Below are positions 3,780 to 44,821 of a DNA stretch of 45,829 nucleotides, piece after piece. How positions within the stretch are numbered: the first letter of the stretch is position 1; the number at the start of each line of letters is the position of its first letter. The position numbers and the translations under genes were made by a program. The notes below the pieces were generated by a model. That model was not told the origin of the DNA. It worked only from the letters and a program-made list of their open reading frames with translations, and searched no databases. The DNA is from a virus, in the IMG/VR virus record IMGVR_UViG_3300037258_000033, positions 1 to 45,829 of that record; one strand, written 5' to 3'.

Positions 3780-3980
3780 CTAGAGTTGCACTACAGCATT
3801 CTCGTCGATGATCAGACACCTATCGCACAACTTGTAGTTGTACCACCACCTAAGGTTCGCACCGCACTGTTGGCATGTGCCGCCCTTGTTGACTCCTGGA
3901 GGATCCGTCTGCATGACGTTACGCTTCTCCTGAATACGATCTTTTTTCGCTTGTGAGTCCTTGCTTCTTGGATTCGACAT
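3780..3980 (-). CDS. Zinc-ribbon protein (66 aa)
   Basis: The protein contains CQQC near residue 36 and CDRC near residue 52, a classical four-cysteine zinc ribbon. It has a very basic N-terminal tail rich in Lys and Arg. Such proteins often bind nucleic acid or act as adaptors; the specific role here is unknown. A purine-rich ribosome binding site (GAGGAAAAG) precedes the ATG. Confidence 0.75.
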   Translation of the reverse strand: MSNPRSKDSQAKKDRIQEKRNVMQTDPPGVNKGGTCQQCGANLRWWYNYKLCDRCLIIDENAVVQL

Positions 3981-4000
3981 GACTACTTTTCCTCGTCTTC

Positions 4001-4303
4001 TCAGGTGTTCATTCTGTTTTTGGTGTCGCGTGCAGCGAAGAATTCGTCTGCGCTTCTTACATCTATAACCTTACGTCCGCAGATACAGGGCTCTTCTTTT
4101 ATCTTACCTGTTCGAATGTAGTAGTAGATCAGTTGTGGCTGCCAAATTGTTCCGGTCATTAGTGACTTGAACTTGGAGTACTCCCGAACAGACATCTTAA
4201 CTGTACCCTGTAGTGCTGCTTCATGTGCATCAGCCAACTCATCCGCTAGAATGGCAGCCTCCAGATCGTCGATACCTCCGACATATCTAGGTGTACTTTC
4301 CAT
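4001..4303 (-). CDS. Helix-turn-helix protein of the PPQ-Y-Y family
   Basis: This 100-aa protein has SVREYSKF followed by QPQLIYYYIRTGKI and then GRKVIDVRSADEFF. The layout is that of a small excisionase/MerR-like winged helix: helix, recognition helix, wing, final helix. The core P-Q-[LM]-x-Y-x-Y-x-[RK] recurs in the proteins at 6616-7098 and 10796-11053, so these look like paralogues. GAAGGGAG is a strong ribosome binding site. It is probably a DNA-binding regulator or structural DNA-binding protein. Confidence 0.7.
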   Translation of the reverse strand: MESTPRYVGGIDDLEAAILADELADAHEAALQGTVKMSVREYSKFKSLMTGTIWQPQLIYYYIRTGKIKEEPCICGRKVIDVRSADEFFAARDTKNRMNT

Positions 4304-4806: not shown

Positions 4807-5009
4807 AACGATAGTTTCCCTTCTCCAACCATCGTATCCATGTCGATGATTTCGCCCGTTATGTCTTCCTCAGCGTACATGCGATCCACGTTCGAATCGT
4901 TGTCTAAGTAGGCCTGACGAATCATCTCTTCCACAAGCGTACGACGCACACTAGCCATAAGCGGAGTAGGCGAATCGTCCCACAACGTAAACGTCTCTTC
5001 CGTTTCCAT
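4803..5009 (-). CDS. Small acidic hypothetical protein (68 aa)
   Basis: The ATG at 5009 overlaps the TAA of the upstream gene (TAATG), and the stop overlaps the next gene (ATGA). The upstream GGAAGGGGAG is a strong binding site lying inside the previous coding sequence. The protein is acidic and mostly helical, with no recognisable domain. Confidence 0.7.
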   Translation of the reverse strand: METEETFTLWDDSPTPLMASVRRTLVEEMIRQAYLDNDSNVDRMYAEEDITGEIIDMDTMVGEGKLSL

Positions 5010-5488
5010 TACTCCCCTTCCTGTTCCTCGATGATAAAGGTAAGAGCTCTCTCCACGACAGAGAGTCTGTTGTTCAGGTTAGCAATCTGATCGCGAAGCT
5101 CTTCCTGCATGGATTGCCTCTTGCGCGGTGTTATATGGTTCGCATCGAGTGTTTCTGAAGAGTACTTAGTAAAGTCTGCCTCGGTAGGCTCTCGCACCAA
5201 TTGCCACTGTGAAGGAGAGGTACCGCCACCACGACGTAATTGCCTTATGCAACCCATCTTCTTCATCGCGCGCGTCATGAACGTGTAATAGGGAACGCTT
5301 AAGTTCATGTCAGCCGTAACGAACTTAGTCAGCATCCCTTCCCAGACGATGATATAGTCCTCGTCGGTCAAATCGTCGGGTGCAGTGTTAGGATCGGGCT
5401 GCAGAGAGGCCTGCGAGTGCATTAACCTATACATATTCTGACAATGTATAAATAGTGCCGCAGGAGCCTCAGTAGCAGTTGTGGTCAC
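5009..5488 (-). CDS. Hypothetical protein with C-terminal coiled coil (159 aa)
   Basis: Residues 1-110 look globular and helical, with a TTSPSQWQLV-like stretch that could be the wing of a winged helix. Residues 125-159 (MQEELRDQIANLNNRLSV) form a heptad-like coiled coil suited to dimerisation. It overlaps its neighbours on both sides (ATGA upstream, TAATG downstream). The function is unknown; a DNA-binding role is only a possibility. Confidence 0.7.
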   Translation of the reverse strand: MTTTATEAPAALFIHCQNMYRLMHSQASLQPDPNTAPDDLTDEDYIIVWEGMLTKFVTADMNLSVPYYTFMTRAMKKMGCIRQLRRGGGTSPSQWQLVREPTEADFTKYSSETLDANHITPRKRQSMQEELRDQIANLNNRLSVVERALTFIIEEQEGE

Positions 5489-5691
5489 AACTTACTCCGA
5501 ATGAGTTGTAAGTGACTACGTTGGACAGCTGCATTCTTGAGTACTGATTCGAGCTCGGGTAGCGCAAGGTTATTATCCGTTGCCATCGCTTCCCAGACCT
5601 CTTTATGCATCTCAAGATGGAGATCCAACGTTTCCTTAAGTGCCGCTCTGGCTTCACGTGTTAGCCATAGTGGCTTGGTTAAACGAGCCAT
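5485..5691 (-). CDS. Small helical hypothetical protein (68 aa)
   Basis: This is the first gene after the non-coding block. A promoter with a perfect TATAAT lies just upstream (5712-5741) and GAAGGAAGGAG precedes the ATG. The protein is helical, with a basic start and LALPELESVLKNAA, and has no recognisable domain. It is coupled to the next gene by ATGA. Confidence 0.7.
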   Translation of the reverse strand: MARLTKPLWLTREARAALKETLDLHLEMHKEVWEAMATDNNLALPELESVLKNAAVQRSHLQLIRSKL

Positions 5692-5711
5692 CTAAACTCC
5701 TTCCTTCTTTT

Positions 5712-5741
5712 ATTATATAGTGTACGAACTAGGTAACACAA
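5712..5741 (-). promoter_or_regulatory. Sigma-70-type promoter
   Basis: The minus strand carries -10 TATAAT (5717-5712) and -35 TTGTGT (5741-5736) with an 18-base spacer. It lies between the terminator-like hairpin at 5757 and the gene at 5691. It shares the TTG-N3, 18-base, TATAAT layout of the promoters at 7212, 7337 and 9897. Confidence 0.6.
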
Positions 5742-5756
5742 GAGGGTAAAATTAGT

Positions 5757-5783
5757 GGGAATAGCGTCCTGGACGCTATTCCC
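5757..5783 (-). terminator. Hairpin closing the structured RNA block
   Basis: GGGAATAGCGT pairs perfectly with ACGCTATTCCC around a CCTGG loop. On the minus strand it is followed by ACTAATTTT. It sits between the tRNA-like block and the next promoter, which suits a terminator. The U-run is weak. Confidence 0.55.
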
Positions 5784-5784
5784 T

Positions 5785-5892
5785 GTTCGCGCAGGAGCCG
5801 AACCCTCATTTATGTCCTTAGATCCGGCCCTGGGGCGACACCCGCGCGCAAGCCGCCCCAGGACCTAACTCAGTGTGATACTCCTACGCAAC
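5785..5892 (-). ncRNA. Structured RNA candidate
   Basis: On the minus strand GUUGCGUAGG (5892-5883) can pair with CCUGCGCGAAC (5795-5785), with one bulge. Inside, CCUGGGGCG (5862-5854) pairs perfectly with CGCCCCAGG (5837-5829), a 9-bp GC hairpin. A GAGGGUUCGGCUCC stretch next to the closing stem resembles a worn T arm. Just upstream, GGACGCGTAGCTC looks like the 5' acceptor and D-stem of a tRNA, but I find no matching 3' acceptor. It could be a diverged class II tRNA or a different RNA. Confidence 0.4.
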
Positions 5893-5912
5893 GCCTGAGC
5901 TACGCGTCCGTA

Positions 5913-5967
5913 TGGTGCGTGAGAGTGGATTCGAACCACTCAAGCTAACCAGTGCCTCTGGTCACGC
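5913..5967 (-). tRNA. Mini tRNA-like unit lacking an anticodon arm, CCA encoded
   Basis: Read on the minus strand, GCGTGA pairs with TCACGC as an acceptor stem. AGGC-ACTGGTTA-GCTT forms a D arm whose loop has A14, G18G19 and A21. AGTGG-TTCGAAT-CCACT is a perfect T arm, followed by discriminator A and an encoded CCA. Total length is 52 bases plus CCA. There is no room for an anticodon arm or variable loop, and no matching 5' acceptor lies at the normal distance of about 73 bases. It is either a decayed tRNA or an elbow-only tRNA mimic. Confidence 0.5.
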
Positions 5968-6025
5968 GCCTGCGACGTTAGTGAGGGTGATCTTATCTCG
6001 GTGCCGCAAGTTCCGAGCCTCCTCG

Positions 6026-6088
6026 TTCGCGTGGCCCGACTCGAACGGGCAGACATGCCTATGTGTTGCGCGAAGACAGTGCACGCGA
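6026..6088 (-). tRNA. Undersized tRNA-like unit (63 nt)
   Basis: TCGCGTG (6088-6082) and CACGCGA (6033-6027) form a perfect 7-bp acceptor stem. GCCCG-TTCGAGT-CGGGC is a canonical T arm. Only 31 bases lie between the acceptor and the T arm, against about 41 in a normal tRNA. They contain ACAT-AGGC-ATGT but no 5+7+5 anticodon arm. CCA is not encoded. The two perfect helices argue against chance. I cannot assign an anticodon. Confidence 0.5.
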
Positions 6089-6095
6089 TCCTTCT

Positions 6096-6154
6096 GTCGC
6101 ACCTACCGCAGGGTAGAAGGGTTAGAACCCTGCTGGCTTTCCCCTCGGTGCGAC
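6096..6154 (-). ncRNA. tRNA-like structured unit (59 nt)
   Basis: GTCGCAC (6154-6148) pairs perfectly with GTGCGAC (6102-6096). Between them GCAGGGT can pair with ACCCTGC, or AGGGT with ACCCT next to CTACC-CTGC-GGTAG. GGGTTCTAACCC resembles a T loop but is not placed beside the 3' acceptor. It is separated from the next unit by only 7 bases. It is probably related to its neighbours; the tRNA identity is doubtful. Confidence 0.4.
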
Positions 6155-6180
6155 AAAACTTGTGAAACTTGTGAAAGTTG

Positions 6181-6486
6181 TTACTCGTCGAATGAGGCGT
6201 GTATCAACTTATCGATGTCATCAACATCGATATCTGCTTCGAGATCCTGAACGAAGTCGGTGTATCGCCTCATGGCATCACTTCGTTCGGAAACGCGCCA
6301 CATTAACAGCCATCGATTTCGAGCGTCCAGTTCCTCGTTGCGGTAGGCAATAATGTACGCCTCCGACATGCCATCGTAGATCAGAGCTGTAGTAGAGCGA
6401 ACTTTCTCGCCAACGCCATTCACCTGAATCGACTTGTAGCTGAGGATGACCCTGTCTCCCTGATTCTGCTCCAGAACGAGATACAT
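6181..6486 (-). CDS. Hypothetical protein (101 aa)
   Basis: AAGGGAG lies seven bases before ATG 6486. The N-terminal part has alternating beta-type hydrophobicity (YLVLEQNQGDRVILSYKSI). The C-terminus is strongly acidic (DLEADIDVDDIDK). No domain is recognised. It is the last protein-coding gene before the structured RNA block, and no terminator separates the two. Confidence 0.75.
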   Translation of the reverse strand: MYLVLEQNQGDRVILSYKSIQVNGVGEKVRSTTALIYDGMSEAYIIAYRNEELDARNRWLLMWRVSERSDAMRRYTDFVQDLEADIDVDDIDKLIHASFDE

Positions 6487-6509
6487 GATCGTACTCCCTT
6501 ATTTAGTTT

Positions 6510-6528
6510 GGCAGTAACTCTTACTGCC
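6510..6528 (-). terminator. Perfect 8-bp hairpin in the gap 6487-6615
   Basis: GGCAGTAA pairs with TTACTGCC around GAG on the minus strand, followed by AAACTAAAT. It lies just downstream of a T-arm-like sequence and upstream of the gene at 6486. It could terminate transcription from 7098 or stabilise the RNA end. Confidence 0.45.
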
Positions 6529-6529
6529 G

Positions 6530-6584
6530 TGAGTAGCGAGGTGTCGAACCTCAATGAGTAGACCTAAAAAGTGTCAGACTCTCA
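6530..6584 (-). other. T-arm-like sequence, possible tRNA remnant
   Basis: The minus strand has GAGG-TTCGACA-CCTC (6552-6538), a T-arm match, followed by CTACTCA. A TGAG at 6584-6581 could pair with its CTCA end, giving a unit of about 55 bases like those at 5913-6088. The acceptor pairing is only four bases, so this is weak. Confidence 0.3.
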
Positions 6585-6615
6585 TGTTCCACAACCTACC
6601 CGACCTGCTACTTCA

Positions 6616-7098
6616 TTACTCGGCCTCAGTCGCCTGCGGCTCGGTGTCCTCTGCCTGAGTGGAAGAGGCCTTCTCTGCCTTCTTCGCCTCCTTGGCAGCC
6701 GCGTTGGTCTTGCGCTCGGCAGCGCGTGCGTTCTTCGCTGTCCACCACGCGAGACCGTCCGCCACCTTCAGTGCCTGCCGATCGTGGCCCAGACTATCCT
6801 GGACCGTCTCGATCGGGAACGGGTTGTCCTTCGGCGCGTTCCGCATGTAGCTGTACACCATCTGCGGGGGCACCTTGTGACTGCCGTCCTTGGCTGTGTG
6901 GTAGAAGTTCCCGTTCGCGTCCTGCTTGTCCGACAGCTCGTTCGCGAGCCCGACAGGCGTGACGTAACCCTCTGGCAGTGCGCCTCGAGCCGGCTCCTTC
7001 TTGACCTTGGGAGCCTTCTCTTCGGTGCTGTCCGACTCATCGACGACGGTGTCGAGCTCGTCGGGAGTGTCCACCTCAGGTGTACCGGTGCGTGCCAT
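6616..7098 (-). CDS. Helix-turn-helix protein of the PPQ-Y-Y family, long form
   Basis: The start at ATG 7098 is chosen because GGAAGGAAG precedes it. The protein (160 aa) has an acidic, disordered N-terminus of about 40 residues. A DNA-binding-type core runs from LPEGYVTPVGLANEL through VPPQMVYSYMRN to the helix at DGLAWW. An Ala/Lys/Glu-rich tail may be helical. The core motif matches the proteins at 4001 and 10796. It is GC-richer than its neighbours. Two promoters lie upstream (7212 and 7337). Confidence 0.72.
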   Translation of the reverse strand: MARTGTPEVDTPDELDTVVDESDSTEEKAPKVKKEPARGALPEGYVTPVGLANELSDKQDANGNFYHTAKDGSHKVPPQMVYSYMRNAPKDNPFPIETVQDSLGHDRQALKVADGLAWWTAKNARAAERKTNAAAKEAKKAEKASSTQAEDTEPQATEAE

Positions 7099-7115
7099 AT
7101 TGCCACTTCCTTCCG

Positions 7116-7142
7116 CCACAACCACACACTATGTAGTTGTGG
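7116..7142 (-). promoter_or_regulatory. Leader hairpin before the 160-aa HTH gene
   Basis: CCACAAC pairs perfectly with GTTGTGG around a 13-base loop, ending about 10 bases before the ribosome binding site. Upstream in the same leader, GGTAGCTC-AGAGG-GAGTTACC forms another 8-bp stem (one G-U pair) that looks like a tRNA D arm. The leader could control translation. Confidence 0.4.
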
Positions 7143-7211
7143 ACCTTGATCGGGTAACTCCCTCTGAGCTACCTCTGCTTGAGTCCAAGTCTTGCTTTGG
7201 CCTCTGTATTT

Positions 7212-7241
7212 ATTATACAGTGACCAAGTTGTTGTACGCAA
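7212..7241 (-). promoter_or_regulatory. Sigma-70-type promoter
   Basis: The minus strand has -10 TATAAT at 7217-7212 and -35 TTGCGT at 7241-7236, with an 18-base spacer. It would start a transcript about 100 bases before the gene at 7098. Confidence 0.6.
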
Positions 7242-7259
7242 GCCCTAGACTCAGAATTA

Positions 7260-7284
7260 CCAAGGTGGAAACTTTACACCTTGG
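7260..7284 (-). terminator. Hairpin between two leftward promoters
   Basis: CCAAGGTG and CACCTTGG pair perfectly over 8 bases with a 9-base loop. No U-run follows, so termination is uncertain. It separates promoter 7337 from promoter 7212. Confidence 0.4.
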
Positions 7285-7325
7285 CAACTCAAAACCTAGG
7301 CCCTTTTCTTGAAGCAATTCTTTCG

Positions 7326-7387
7326 CTTACAATTTAATTATATAGGGAACATAAATGCCCTATCAAGCCCTCGCTACGAGTCAATTT
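7326..7387 (-). repeat. Promoter-bearing repeat, copy A
   Basis: These roughly 62 bases are closely matched at 9886-9947. Shared blocks on the minus strand are AATTGACTCG, GAGGGCTTGA, AGGGCATT and CCCTATATAATT. The repeat holds a complete promoter and flanking conserved sequence that may be an operator. Confidence 0.8.
7337..7366 (-). promoter_or_regulatory. Strong sigma-70-type promoter in repeat copy A
   Basis: The minus strand has -35 TTGATA (7366-7361), an 18-base spacer and -10 TATAAT (7342-7337). It lies immediately downstream of the gene ending at 7389 and drives the leftward genes beginning at 7098. Confidence 0.7.
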
Positions 7388-7388
7388 C

Positions 7389-7715
7389 TTAGAACCAGGG
7401 CGGCAACTCTTTTGGCAACGTTTCCCAATCGTAGCCGTTGTCCTTGCAGCCCACGAAGACGGCATTTCCTACGATCATACCCCCATACCTACCAAGGAGT
7501 GTGGCGCGCTCGTTTATCGGACTTAACTTTACACGTCCGTCTTCATCGACTAACATACACATGCGGTAATTGCGTAACGATTGTGAGTTTACTTGTTCAA
7601 CGTAGCCACCAACCAGCTGTTGCAGCTGCCGTAGGAGGCTTATACCTGTATCCGCTTCCAGTGTCTCCCTTCTCATAAGTTGTTTCACGTCGGCAGGCAC
7701 TACTAGTACAGTCAT
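7389..7715 (-). CDS. DUF3846-like protein (108 aa)
   Basis: MTVLVVPAD, then LRQLQQLVGGYVEQV, MLVDEDGRVK, N-E-R-A-T and GMIVGNAVFVG follow the order typical of DUF3846 proteins. These are common in actinobacterial phages and plasmids and their function is unknown. I choose ATG 7715 because it overlaps the upstream stop as ATGA. It is the last gene before promoter copy A. Confidence 0.75.
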   Translation of the reverse strand: MTVLVVPADVKQLMRRETLEADTGISLLRQLQQLVGGYVEQVNSQSLRNYRMCMLVDEDGRVKLSPINERATLLGRYGGMIVGNAVFVGCKDNGYDWETLPKELPPWF

Positions 7716-12473: not shown

Positions 12474-12760
12474 TCGGTCGCCGAGTAGACTCTCTCGCTG
12501 AGGTGCGATCACCAGGCGACTACTTCGGTCCTACTTTGGGACGCACGGGTGACGAGCCGGCTGTGTTCTTCCTGCTGCCGAATGCTCGTGATGAGGGCGC
12601 ACCAGCCGGACAGCGCAGTATCCATCACGTTGTCAGTCCGCCGCACGTGTTCCGCGAGTGCGTGGATGGGTCGTTAGAGATCCGCGAGTCCATCGGTGCG
12701 ATGCCGTTCTGGCACGGCTACCTGGATGAGGGCAACGTCTGGAGTGAGTCTGATGAGTGA
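12470..12760 (+). CDS. Hypothetical protein upstream of terL (96 aa)
   Basis: I start at ATG 12470 because it overlaps the previous stop as ATGA. The sequence HHVVSPPHVFRECVDGSLEI, followed by FWHGYLDEGNVW, resembles the DUF6527-type pattern of phage proteins with an S-I core and an HGYL end. The function is unknown. It overlaps the terL start by 8 bases. Confidence 0.65.
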   Translation: MIGRRVDSLAEVRSPGDYFGPTLGRTGDEPAVFFLLPNARDEGAPAGQRSIHHVVSPPHVFRECVDGSLEIRESIGAMPFWHGYLDEGNVWSESDE

Positions 12761-14195
12761 GTCTGTGAGAGTTGTGAACAAGAATGCCTTGTTCAAAAAG
12801 CTCGATTACAGACCGCACCACGGACAAATTCAGTATCACACAAGCTCGGCACGCTTTCGGCTTGCAAATTGCGGTCGTAGGTTTGGTAAGTCTACCATGG
12901 CGGGTAGAGACTTGGAGCCAAAACTGTTTTTGCCGAATAAGCGATTTTGGATTGTTGGCCCTACTTACGACTTGGGTGAGAAAGAGTTTCGCGTTGTCTG
13001 GGATGACCTTATTGTAGGTATGCAAATGGGTAGGGACAAGAGGATAAAGAGGGCGTACAACAAGAAGCAGGGCGTTATGTACATTGAGTTCCCATGGAGT
13101 ACGCGACTTGAGGTACGAAGTGCACAACATCCCGAAAACTTAGTTGGTGACGCGTTAGATCACGTTATTATGTCGGAGGCAGCCAAACATGACAAAGATA
13201 CATGGGAGCGTTTTATTCGACCCGCGTTGGCTGACCGACGCGGTGGTGCAGACTTCCCAACCACACCTGAAGGATACAATTGGCTGTACGATCTCTGGAT
13301 GCTGGGGCAAGACGCGGAGACACCCGAGTACGAGAGTTGGCGTTTTCCTTCGTGGCACAATACAGAGGTGTATCCGGAGGGCGAACAGGACCCTGAGATT
13401 CTGTTGCTGCGTAAGACAATGTCTCCCGAAAGCTTCGAGCAGGAGATTGCTGCAGACTTCGGTAGCTTCGTAGGAAAGATCTATCCGGAGTGGGATGCGG
13501 GCGTTCACGTGCGTAATCTACAGTTCAATCCTGCTTGGCGTAACTACATCGCTTTCGATTGGGGTTACAACAACCCCCTAGCGGCGATAGAGTTTCAGGT
13601 TTCACCACGCGATGAGATATTTGTATGGCGTGAGCACTATAAGTCGTATACGCGAGTGGAGGATCATTGTGCGCAACTCAAAGCGAGAGAGCAGCCGACA
13701 GGCTACCACCTCGACTTGGGCTTTGGCGATTCCGCCGATCCCGAAGCAGTTGCGACCGTTTCGCAGAACTTCATTCAGACGTACGCAATGCCCGAAGCCA
13801 AAGAGAATTGGCGAGAAGGAATTGACCTCGTAAGGTCGTTCATGAATCGCGAAGACGGCGAAGACGAGTACGGTGCGCCGCTCTACAAGCCTGCCTTTTA
13901 CGTAGACTTTAAGTGTGTAAATACGATTCGTGAATTCAACAACTACCGTGCGCCCAGTTCAGTTCGGGGTAGGAACGTGCAAGAGATCGGGTTGCGTCAA
14001 GATGATCACGCTCTCGACGCGCTACGTTATGGAATCGTACATCTCTACAAGTTAGGAGCGAATGCAAAGCTGACCGACGTGATCAGTATGAACGTGCCTA
14101 GCGTTAGCCCCTTCGTTGATGCGACTATGCGTTCAACTGACTTGGTACTTAGTGCTAGTGATCGTGGTTACTTTACGCAGGGAGGTGAATTTTAA
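12753..14195 (+). CDS. terL: Terminase large subunit
   Basis: I start at ATG 12753, which overlaps the previous gene by 8 bases, giving 480 aa. Walker A is CGRRFGKST near residue 40. The Walker B-like segment is HVIMSEAA, with Ser-Glu where many families have Asp-Glu. The nuclease domain shows FDWGYNNP, FGDSADPEAV and HALDALRYG, providing the acidic metal ligands. The enzyme powers DNA packaging and cuts concatemers. It is coupled to the portal gene by TAATG after a GGAGGTG site. Confidence 0.95.
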   Translation: MSESVRVVNKNALFKKLDYRPHHGQIQYHTSSARFRLANCGRRFGKSTMAGRDLEPKLFLPNKRFWIVGPTYDLGEKEFRVVWDDLIVGMQMGRDKRIKRAYNKKQGVMYIEFPWSTRLEVRSAQHPENLVGDALDHVIMSEAAKHDKDTWERFIRPALADRRGGADFPTTPEGYNWLYDLWMLGQDAETPEYESWRFPSWHNTEVYPEGEQDPEILLLRKTMSPESFEQEIAADFGSFVGKIYPEWDAGVHVRNLQFNPAWRNYIAFDWGYNNPLAAIEFQVSPRDEIFVWREHYKSYTRVEDHCAQLKAREQPTGYHLDLGFGDSADPEAVATVSQNFIQTYAMPEAKENWREGIDLVRSFMNREDGEDEYGAPLYKPAFYVDFKCVNTIREFNNYRAPSSVRGRNVQEIGLRQDDHALDALRYGIVHLYKLGANAKLTDVISMNVPSVSPFVDATMRSTDLVLSASDRGYFTQGGEF

Positions 14196-43741: not shown

Positions 43742-44064
43742 TCGTAATCGCCTACGTTCCAAATTGTCAGAGCGATTACGGAGTAGACAGCGCGATCTAG
43801 GAGCGTATCGGCGATTCCCTCATTGGCTGGCTTCAACTTAGTTTTCTTCCAAAGTCTAGGTAGTAGTATACGTAGTCGCGCCTGCTTAGTTGCGATAAGG
43901 CTCTCAACGCTATGACCCGGCGTGAGACCGAGTTGGTAGGCAACGTCGTAGAAATTCTGATTCGGGTGATCGTCGCCTGCGTAGTCTTGTCGCTTGGCAC
44001 GATGTGTCTCCACCATCTTGATTAGTACAGCATCGAAGGCCTCTTCAGGATTCAGTGTTAGCAT
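43729..44064 (-). CDS. DUF1599-like nucleotide-modification-associated protein (111 aa)
   Basis: HRAKRQDYAGDDHPNQNFYD, SLIATKQARLRILL and NEGIADTLLDRAVYSVIAL follow the pattern of DUF1599, a domain known from nucleotide-modification gene clusters. The role is not established. It overlaps queC by 20 bases and queD by 13, so expression is joint. Confidence 0.7.
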   Translation of the reverse strand: MLTLNPEEAFDAVLIKMVETHRAKRQDYAGDDHPNQNFYDVAYQLGLTPGHSVESLIATKQARLRILLPRLWKKTKLKPANEGIADTLLDRAVYSVIALTIWNVGDYEWVQ

Positions 44065-44821
44065 TCGCAATCGCTTCCTTCCAGAACTCGCTGTCCGCGT
44101 ATCTGGTACGATCGTACCAGGTAGTTAATCCTGTTTCTTCCTTATGCATAGCAATAGCACCATGAATAGCTTCCAAACGTTCTACGCATGTTCCACACCT
44201 ACCGCAATGAATATCGCCACCCTTGTAACAACTCCATGTTTCTTCGAGTGGCACCTCTAGTGTAAGAGCAATATGTGCAATGTCTTCCTTTGTAATGTAC
44301 AAGTAGGGCGCTACAATAGGATTGGACCACAGCTCGCCAAAACTTTCATTACCGCAGTACGTAGTATTGCTTACGGCTCTAATAAATTCAGGTCGACAAT
44401 CAGGATAGATAAAGTGGTCGCCTGCATGAACAGCCGTTGCAACCCTATTAGCACCTTTTGCAACGGCAATACCCGCAGCCATACTTAACATAATCATATT
44501 ACGATTCGGAACAACCGTCGCCTTCATAGTCTCTTGTGCGTAGTGTCCTTCTGGAACTGCTGTATCACTGATAAGAGAACTTTCCGATGAGGAAAGCGCC
44601 TCAGGTAGCCCAGAGCTCCACAGGTCGATTAGGATGTGGTTGATATCGAGTTTCTCGCACGTTGCTTGAGCGAATGAGAGTTCCTTTTTGTGACGTTGCC
44701 CGTAGTTAAATGAAACGGCAGCGACAATCTGATCGCCTATTTCTAGCAGTTCGTACAGCAGTGTAGTACTATCCAGACCTCCGCTAAGAACGACAATAGT
44801 CTTATTTTGTCTTGTTGGCAT
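44045..44821 (-). CDS. queC: 7-cyano-7-deazaguanine (preQ0) synthase
   Basis: This 258-aa protein has the PP-loop SGGLDS at 13-18, FNYGQRH, VPNRN, and a zinc set CYKGGDIHCGRCGTC near the end, all diagnostic for QueC. It makes preQ0 from carboxy-deazaguanine with ATP and ammonia. No amidotransferase domain is fused, and no QueF-like gene is seen nearby. Confidence 0.95.
   Translation of the reverse strand: MPTRQNKTIVVLSGGLDSTTLLYELLEIGDQIVAAVSFNYGQRHKKELSFAQATCEKLDINHILIDLWSSGLPEALSSSESSLISDTAVPEGHYAQETMKATVVPNRNMIMLSMAAGIAVAKGANRVATAVHAGDHFIYPDCRPEFIRAVSNTTYCGNESFGELWSNPIVAPYLYITKEDIAHIALTLEVPLEETWSCYKGGDIHCGRCGTCVERLEAIHGAIAMHKEETGLTTWYDRTRYADSEFWKEAIANANTES

Follow-up and report, generated by a model that had tools for sequence, protein, structure and literature searches.

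Why would a phage keep RNA units that have the acceptor stem and T arm of a tRNA and nothing where the anticodon arm should be? The question arises from the window, by which we mean the whole 45,829-base stretch analysed here, the IMG/VR phage contig IMGVR_UViG_3300037258_000033. Terminase, portal and DNA polymerase genes are all present in it, and its early region is on the minus strand, where tRNA-like units lie between the genes at 7125-6616, 6486-6181 and 5691-5485. A preliminary description of the locus placed a block of undersized units at 5757-6154 and offered two readings, a decaying tRNA cluster or functional tRNA mimics. That extent was too narrow, since it leaves out unit A (6601-6530), whose T arm is also canonical. 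The features discussed below are:

12696-14195: terminase gene
6616-7125, minus strand: small gene (169 aa) upstream of unit A, used as a syntenic anchor
6530-6601, minus strand: unit A, with a 6-bp acceptor GGGTAG/CTACTC and T arm TGAGG-TTCGACA-CCTCG
6510-6528, minus strand: hairpin GGCAGTAAGAGTTACTGCC, seen in the sequence between unit A and the ribosome-binding site of the next gene
6181-6486, minus strand: small gene (101 aa) between unit A and units B-E
6095-6155, minus strand: unit B, with a perfect 9-bp terminal helix TGTCGCACC/GGTGCGACA (sequence and fold)
6026-6088, minus strand: unit C, with a perfect 7-bp acceptor TCGCGTG/CACGCGA
5913-5967, minus strand: unit D, with a 6-bp acceptor GCGTGA/TCACGC and a 6-bp T arm GAGTGG-TTCGAAT-CCACTC
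about 5785-5908, minus strand: unit E, a long extended hairpin (fold) with the tRNA-like fragments GTAGCTCAG and GGGTTCGGCT
5757-5783, minus strand: terminator-like hairpin of 12 bp with a weak T tract, at the end of the block
5009-5488, minus strand: small gene (159 aa) downstream of the block, used as a syntenic anchor

Units C and D do have the full acceptors and canonical T arms first ascribed to the block, but unit B has the non-canonical 'T loop' TTCTAAC and resembles a tRNA only weakly. The canonical 5-bp T arm of unit C (GCCCG-TTCGAGT-CGGGC) is preceded by the linker ATAGGCATGTCT, there is no anticodon arm, and the discriminator A is followed by C (6025). Unit D carries the D-loop-like motif ACTGGTTA with A14, G18G19 and A21, encodes ACCA and is empty at the anticodon-arm position, all as previously noted. 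Its D arm is less secure; the motif is there, but in the energy model the D stem AGGC/GCTT loses out to a CCAG/CTGG hairpin. No anticodon stem with a 7-nt loop was found between the acceptor and T arm of either unit, and in both the acceptor and T stems add up to a stack of about 12 bp capped by the T loop (7+5 in C, 6+6 in D). Unit A has a T arm recognized as canonical by the T-arm scan, a non-canonical middle, and a discriminator A followed by C (6529). The 3' end reads A-C-G in units A and C, in keeping with R73-C74 followed by U or G, and differs in unit D (ACCA).

The strongly folded neighbour reported beside these units, unit E, is indeed a long hairpin but contains only fragments resembling a tRNA. 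It was not recovered by the T-arm scan, and its standing as a tRNA-like unit is doubtful. The terminator beside the block and the raised GC content of the block (about 0.56, compared with 0.47-0.50 around it) were both found as described. Directly past the terminator-like hairpin is one copy of a TATAAT-type motif; the TATAAT-containing GTACACTATATAATAAAA recurs on the minus strand at 5708-5725, 7208-7225 and 7333-7350, and these copies are likely early promoters. The 101-aa gene has no match in PHROGs, the DNA of the block has no similarity to named phages, and a search of viral_contigs returned no direct homologues of the two flanking small proteins.

ARAGORN predicts no tRNA or tmRNA in the window, and no Rfam family matches it at gathering score; at E<=10, the only Rfam match in 5000-7500 is a chance match to a microRNA. 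An ordinary tRNA or tmRNA is therefore ruled out for the window. The G3:U70 alanine identity pair is absent from units C and D, both of which have G3-C70, and we rejected mimicry of alanine tRNA or tmRNA through this pair.

The arrangement of the units is not what chance would produce. Three canonical T arms fall on one strand within ~0.6 kb of the 45.8-kb window. A strict scan for acceptor plus T arm, covering 235 kb (the window plus 12 stretches from relatives), found 27 matches and none in any of five Markov copies. A scan for the T arm only, run on 19 sequences from the window and its family, found 35 where the Markov copies gave 0-2. Taken singly against shuffled upstream DNA, the acceptor partners are unremarkable or modest (p = 0.28 for A, 0.10 for D and 0.02 for C). 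Taken together, the partners of 21 units, comprising T-arm matches that ARAGORN does not call tRNA, beat shuffled upstream DNA with a combined p of about 1.5e-8, and 20 of the 21 keep the acceptor partner along with the T arm. The discriminator is followed by C in all 35 T-arm matches (ordinary tRNAs included; counted by eye, with the acceptor taken as 7 bp or one pair shorter), and then usually by G or T.

Terminase and helicase queries recovered about 50 related contigs, in which we defined a homologous slot by homologues of the window genes 6616-7125 and 5009-5488. Homologues of the former adjoin odd units in L071, L207, L076 and L077, and those of the latter occur in L071-L078, L203, L205 and L207. 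The slot holds four units (B-E) in the window, one of 85 nt in L071, one of 72 nt in L207, one of 49 nt in L076, and four of 55-112 nt in L077. Across the relatives the odd units in the slot span 49-113 nt and keep the acceptor and T arm. We found no unit in the slot of L073, L074, L078, L203 and L205, and the unit is thus not essential in these five. Ordinary tRNAs lie upstream of the homologue of gene 5009 in two relatives, L072 and L075, and at other places in the region in L203 and L080. By the preliminary description, full-length tRNAs at these positions in relatives would refute its observation and point to decay or an assembly error in the window; some relatives do have ordinary tRNAs at or close to the slot, but others have odd units instead. 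Outside the slot, L072 has a second unit without an anticodon arm (3963-4017), with the architecture of window unit D. The T arm is identical in window unit C and the L207 unit, and one loop base off in L072 3546-3632; the acceptors of these three differ at several pairs, with both sides changed. Given the same T arm, the paired changes in the acceptors and the varied contents of the slot, we take this to be a former tRNA slot that has preserved the acceptor-T portion and not the remainder.

The main surprise of the analysis is a class of still smaller units, which we call minis. In the sibling phages L073, L075 and L205 there are units of ~42 nt, made up of an acceptor strand, an 11-nt linker (e.g., AATGGCATACT), a 6-bp T arm, the other acceptor strand, a discriminator and C. 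In its smallest form the element is 40-44 nt long, with a 5-bp acceptor, the linker AnnGGCAnACA and a 6-bp T arm, then R-C-[U/G]. Most matches to a first pattern for armless tRNAs were ordinary tRNAs, 3' ends of tmRNAs or members of a noncanonical class that has an Ile-type anticodon loop, and the pattern was replaced by GGCAYAC, a gap and GGTTCGAGTCC. Applied to viral_contigs with no pairing filter, this pattern gave 138 distinct viral matches among the matches listed, and the acceptor is paired in exact register in 106 of them, compared with 13 (maximum 21) when partners are shuffled. In bacterial genomes it hit 81 stretches, many of which are tRNAs of Pandoraea and other Burkholderiales, or chance.

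Among 199 distinct minis the linker is AnnGGCAnACA, the loop is TTCGAGT, and A73 (78%) and C74 (95%) are followed mostly by U or G. Both sides change in 10 of the 11 pairs of a 49-sequence alignment; these sequences were picked by pairing, and the fair test of pairing is the unfiltered 138-match set. With a covariance model of the element (R1, 44 positions), 59 loci yield 181 units at E<0.01, and many of these lie outside the search pattern. In all, phages of Actinobacteria, of Bacteroidetes and from metagenomes contain about 200 distinct copies, and a stretch of about 6 kb can have as many as about 13. The full minis of L073, L075 and L205 score 58-64 bits, L207 is matched weakly, and nine host genomes searched whole have 0-4 matches each. 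No Rfam family matches the minis, the loci that bear them gave only ordinary tRNAs, and the minis are not annotated where checked. Among open-licence PMC papers we found no description of anticodon-less phage tRNA-like elements or of RNase P punctuation, nor of decoys or repeats in these phages, an absence that is weak evidence. The mini class is apparently both widespread and undescribed.

Some minis lie in regions that look mobile. Amycolatopsis antarctica (L386 6880-7270) and L211 have a tandem array of at least four minis in about 400 nt, separated by GC-rich GGCATGGCA-type repeats, within a prophage-like region. In Bacteroidetes, minis were seen in Tenacibaculum (L374 7802-7759), Flavobacterium cerinum (L373 3313-3356) and Riemerella (L378). 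Those of L373 and L374 are upstream of large genes that by eye resemble Mu-type transposases; otherwise the minis lie in mobile-looking parts of the genomes.

The window units are not members of the class as modelled. The best R1 match in the window (14 bits, E 0.21) covers only the T arm of unit C, and that on unit D again only the T arm (9.2 bits); with the whole 44-position model unmatched at E<0.01, we rejected membership. What the window units and the minis have in common is structure, the 3' signature and, for unit A, placement. A relationship is plausible, and the window units may be expanded or degenerate relatives of a broader phage RNA element.

Where the units lie relative to genes is a further clue. 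A same-strand stop is nearby in 201 of 213 units, a median of 9 nt before the unit (IQR 7-19), and a start with a ribosome-binding site follows in 179 of 213, a median of 41 nt after it (IQR 36-48). Random places in the same loci often have a stop (61%) or a start (40%) in range as well, and therefore the signal is the tight spacing and not mere presence. A hairpin between unit and start is common, with a median of -11.6 kcal/mol compared with -8.3 at random places. In Streptomyces phage Caliburn, for instance, all ten units are in early gene gaps between co-directional genes, and the structural-gene arm has none. The layout is the same in Mycobacterium phage Papyrus and Gordonia phage Aleemily. 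In Microbacterium phage Pavlo a unit is 13 nt after a stop, with a longer gap to the next gene. Unit A of the window follows the rule of the minis, being 14 nt from the preceding stop (6616) and 43 nt from the following ATG (6486), and its hairpin at 6510-6528 has the position of the hairpin that follows mini units. Units B-E instead form an array, as do the R1 units of the Amycolatopsis prophage (at least four in about 400 nt). Given that an ordinary tRNA-Arg in L072 is 7 nt after a stop and 42 nt before a start, a single placement grammar can serve minis, odd units and ordinary tRNAs alike.

What might units of this form and position do? The reading that we put forward, tentatively and with somewhat less than even confidence, is that they are anticodon-free tRNA mimics read by host RNase P, which punctuate early phage mRNAs. 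The units retain the acceptor-T-arm stack and the D-loop-like GG motif of the tRNA 'elbow', and the D stem and anticodon arm would have been lost or replaced. The minis are set between co-directional early genes, directly past a stop codon. In the early polycistronic mRNA, host RNase P would read the stacked acceptor/T helix, the T-loop elbow and R73-C74, and would cut at the 5' side of the unit while the mRNA is being made; RNase Z and the CCA enzyme may act on the 3' side. The mRNA would be split at gene borders, and the downstream messages would often begin with a protective hairpin before the ribosome-binding site. Such processing would call for no more than acceptor, T arm and elbow, which would leave the anticodon and D regions free to drift and would let an ordinary tRNA take the same place. 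Against this reading, RNase P normally prefers RCCA, which in the window is encoded only by unit D; the acceptors of the window units are weak taken one by one, and the units do not match R1 as a whole.

We propose the units as RNase P cutting marks because their constant parts are what RNase P reads, and because AT1, a bare hairpin of acceptor, T stem and T loop, is cleaved by RNase P (PMC11143913). Several phage RNAs are natural substrates of the enzyme (PMC11143913), and in its substrates the D loop is dispensable and a T-like loop is needed (PMC4919913). Punctuation leaves the arrays, the 11-bp (not 12-bp) stacks of most minis and the empty slots in relatives unexplained; four units in one gap of the window, and at least four minis in the Amycolatopsis array, are more than one mark per border would require. 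Avoidance of pairing between N-1 and N73, considered as evidence of a cut site, was not seen in the minis and was dropped.

Several other readings compete with punctuation. A possible though rather unlikely one combines two roles, with minis and longer variants cut from early mRNAs by the tRNA-processing enzymes of the host and completed with CCA, setting mRNA borders and also acting in trans as tRNA mimics. Unlikely, too, is that the units are decoys, that is, excised, stable, anticodon-free mimics that during infection would occupy host factors or tRNA-targeting defence enzymes (modifiers of the 3' CCA, tRNA nucleases, the CCA enzyme or EF-Tu). The structure would suit enzymes that read only acceptor and elbow, the 3' signature is common to units and tRNAs, and the use of many copies (up to 13 in about 6 kb), like the tandem arrays in the window and the Amycolatopsis prophage, speaks for decoys as well. 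However, a decoy has no need of the fixed spacing (stop, 9 nt, unit, 41 nt, start) seen in most phages, no defence partner was identified, and most copies do not encode CCA. One unit per gene gap, as in other phages, fits RNA processing better than decoys, and arrays like that of the window are compatible with decoys. A direct effect in cis, in which a mimic past the stop modulates termination, antitermination or reinitiation at the start ~41 nt downstream, for example by offering a tRNA elbow to the ribosome, would account for the tight spacing to stop and start and for the hairpin that follows. It is nevertheless distinctly improbable. Tandem arrays occur without genes, U-tract terminators are not required, and both R73-C74 and the conserved D-loop/T-loop motif suggest tRNA enzymes as the readers.

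A degenerating old tRNA cluster, whose acceptor and T arms would have outlasted the rest by chance or because simple hairpins regrew, is quite unlikely on present evidence, and simple decay is less likely than mimicry. In favour of decay are the ordinary tRNAs that some relatives have at or close to the slot (L072, L075) or elsewhere in the region (L203, L080), the empty slot of others, and the wide variation of odd units in length and middle sequence. Yet odd units of very different lengths keep both acceptor and T arm, with the partner retained in 20 of the 21 T-arm matches outside ARAGORN predictions; unit C and L207 have identical T arms and acceptors that differ by paired changes; C74 is universal; and the 42-nt minis of sibling phages are strongly conserved. 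The mimic reading of the preliminary description gains correspondingly from the acceptor and T arms kept in relatives, from the C after the discriminator as in tRNAs, and from the large covarying 40-44 nt class found partly in sibling phages. It is very improbable that the units still decode codons as oddly shaped translation tRNAs. A noncanonical class with NAT anticodons, in which the GG motif has moved next to the T arm, does keep an Ile-type anticodon loop, but the 7-nt anticodon loop is missing from units C and D and from the minis, whose linkers are 11 nt.

Were punctuation by RNase P correct, annotation pipelines would be overlooking a repeated RNA element in many phages of Actinobacteria, Bacteroidetes and other hosts, and host RNase P might shape early phage mRNAs alongside promoters and terminators. 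It would explain how selection can maintain the rest of a phage tRNA gene after its anticodon arm is gone. The minis would also offer a natural minimal tRNA mimic for studying the requirements of RNase P, the CCA enzyme and elbow-binding factors, and Streptomyces phage Caliburn and Mycobacterium phage Papyrus are among the cultured phages that could serve as test cases.

In mitochondrial transcripts, tRNA shapes between genes act as cutting marks (tRNA punctuation). The phage units are likewise tRNA shapes between genes, but the proposed marks are mostly not tRNAs and lie in early operons. With canonical tRNAs (RF00005) the units share the acceptor stem, a T arm with a TTCRANY loop, the discriminator and the D-loop-like GG, and the ordinary tRNAs of relatives share with them the A-C-[G/T] 3' end and sometimes the slot; unlike tRNAs, they have no anticodon arm and usually no D stem, and those of the window are missed by ARAGORN and Rfam. 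The tRNA-like domain of tmRNA similarly combines acceptor and T arm with a reduced D loop and no anticodon arm, whereas the units have no tag-coding part, no G3:U70 (C and D) and a length of 40-85 nt instead of about 350 nt. The minimal helix and loop are nearly identical to those of AT1 (PMC11143913), but the units are natural and phage-borne, have a conserved D-loop-like linker, end in R-C-[U/G] and not RCCA, and their cleavage is putative. M3 RNA, C4 antisense RNA and T4 gene 32 mRNA (PMC11143913) are also non-tRNA phage RNAs recognized by RNase P; these are single RNAs, whereas the mini element is repeated between many genes and in many phages.

The searches also brought up other RNAs of unusual form. 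The noncanonical tRNA class mentioned above is separate from the minis and occurs in about 40 viral contigs (L086-L162) and in Streptomyces phage Jay2Jay (KM652554 75243-75305; L415 1201-1263). In its members the acceptor is followed by TA and by a long anticodon arm whose loop reads CTNATA[C/A] (anticodons TAT, GAT and CAT), and AACTGGTTACAT immediately precedes the T arm. The listed members are missed by ARAGORN, two score about 33-35 bits with the Rfam tRNA model, and the class is mostly unannotated in phage records. Short RNAs of about 110-130 nt, far below the length of an ordinary tmRNA, have tmRNA-like ends (e.g., GGGGATGAAATGGTTTCGAC plus a T arm) in the regions upstream of L103 6949-6977, L155 9824-9852 and L161 2000-2028.

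Two observations concern the window away from the block. Near its left end, in a stretch of ~65-69% GC, a minus-strand gene (727-1491) encodes a protein with a long NAANAAYA-type repeat. At 44045-44821, also on the minus strand, a QueC-like 7-deazaguanine biosynthesis gene adjoins a primase-like gene, an observation that hints at modified phage DNA.
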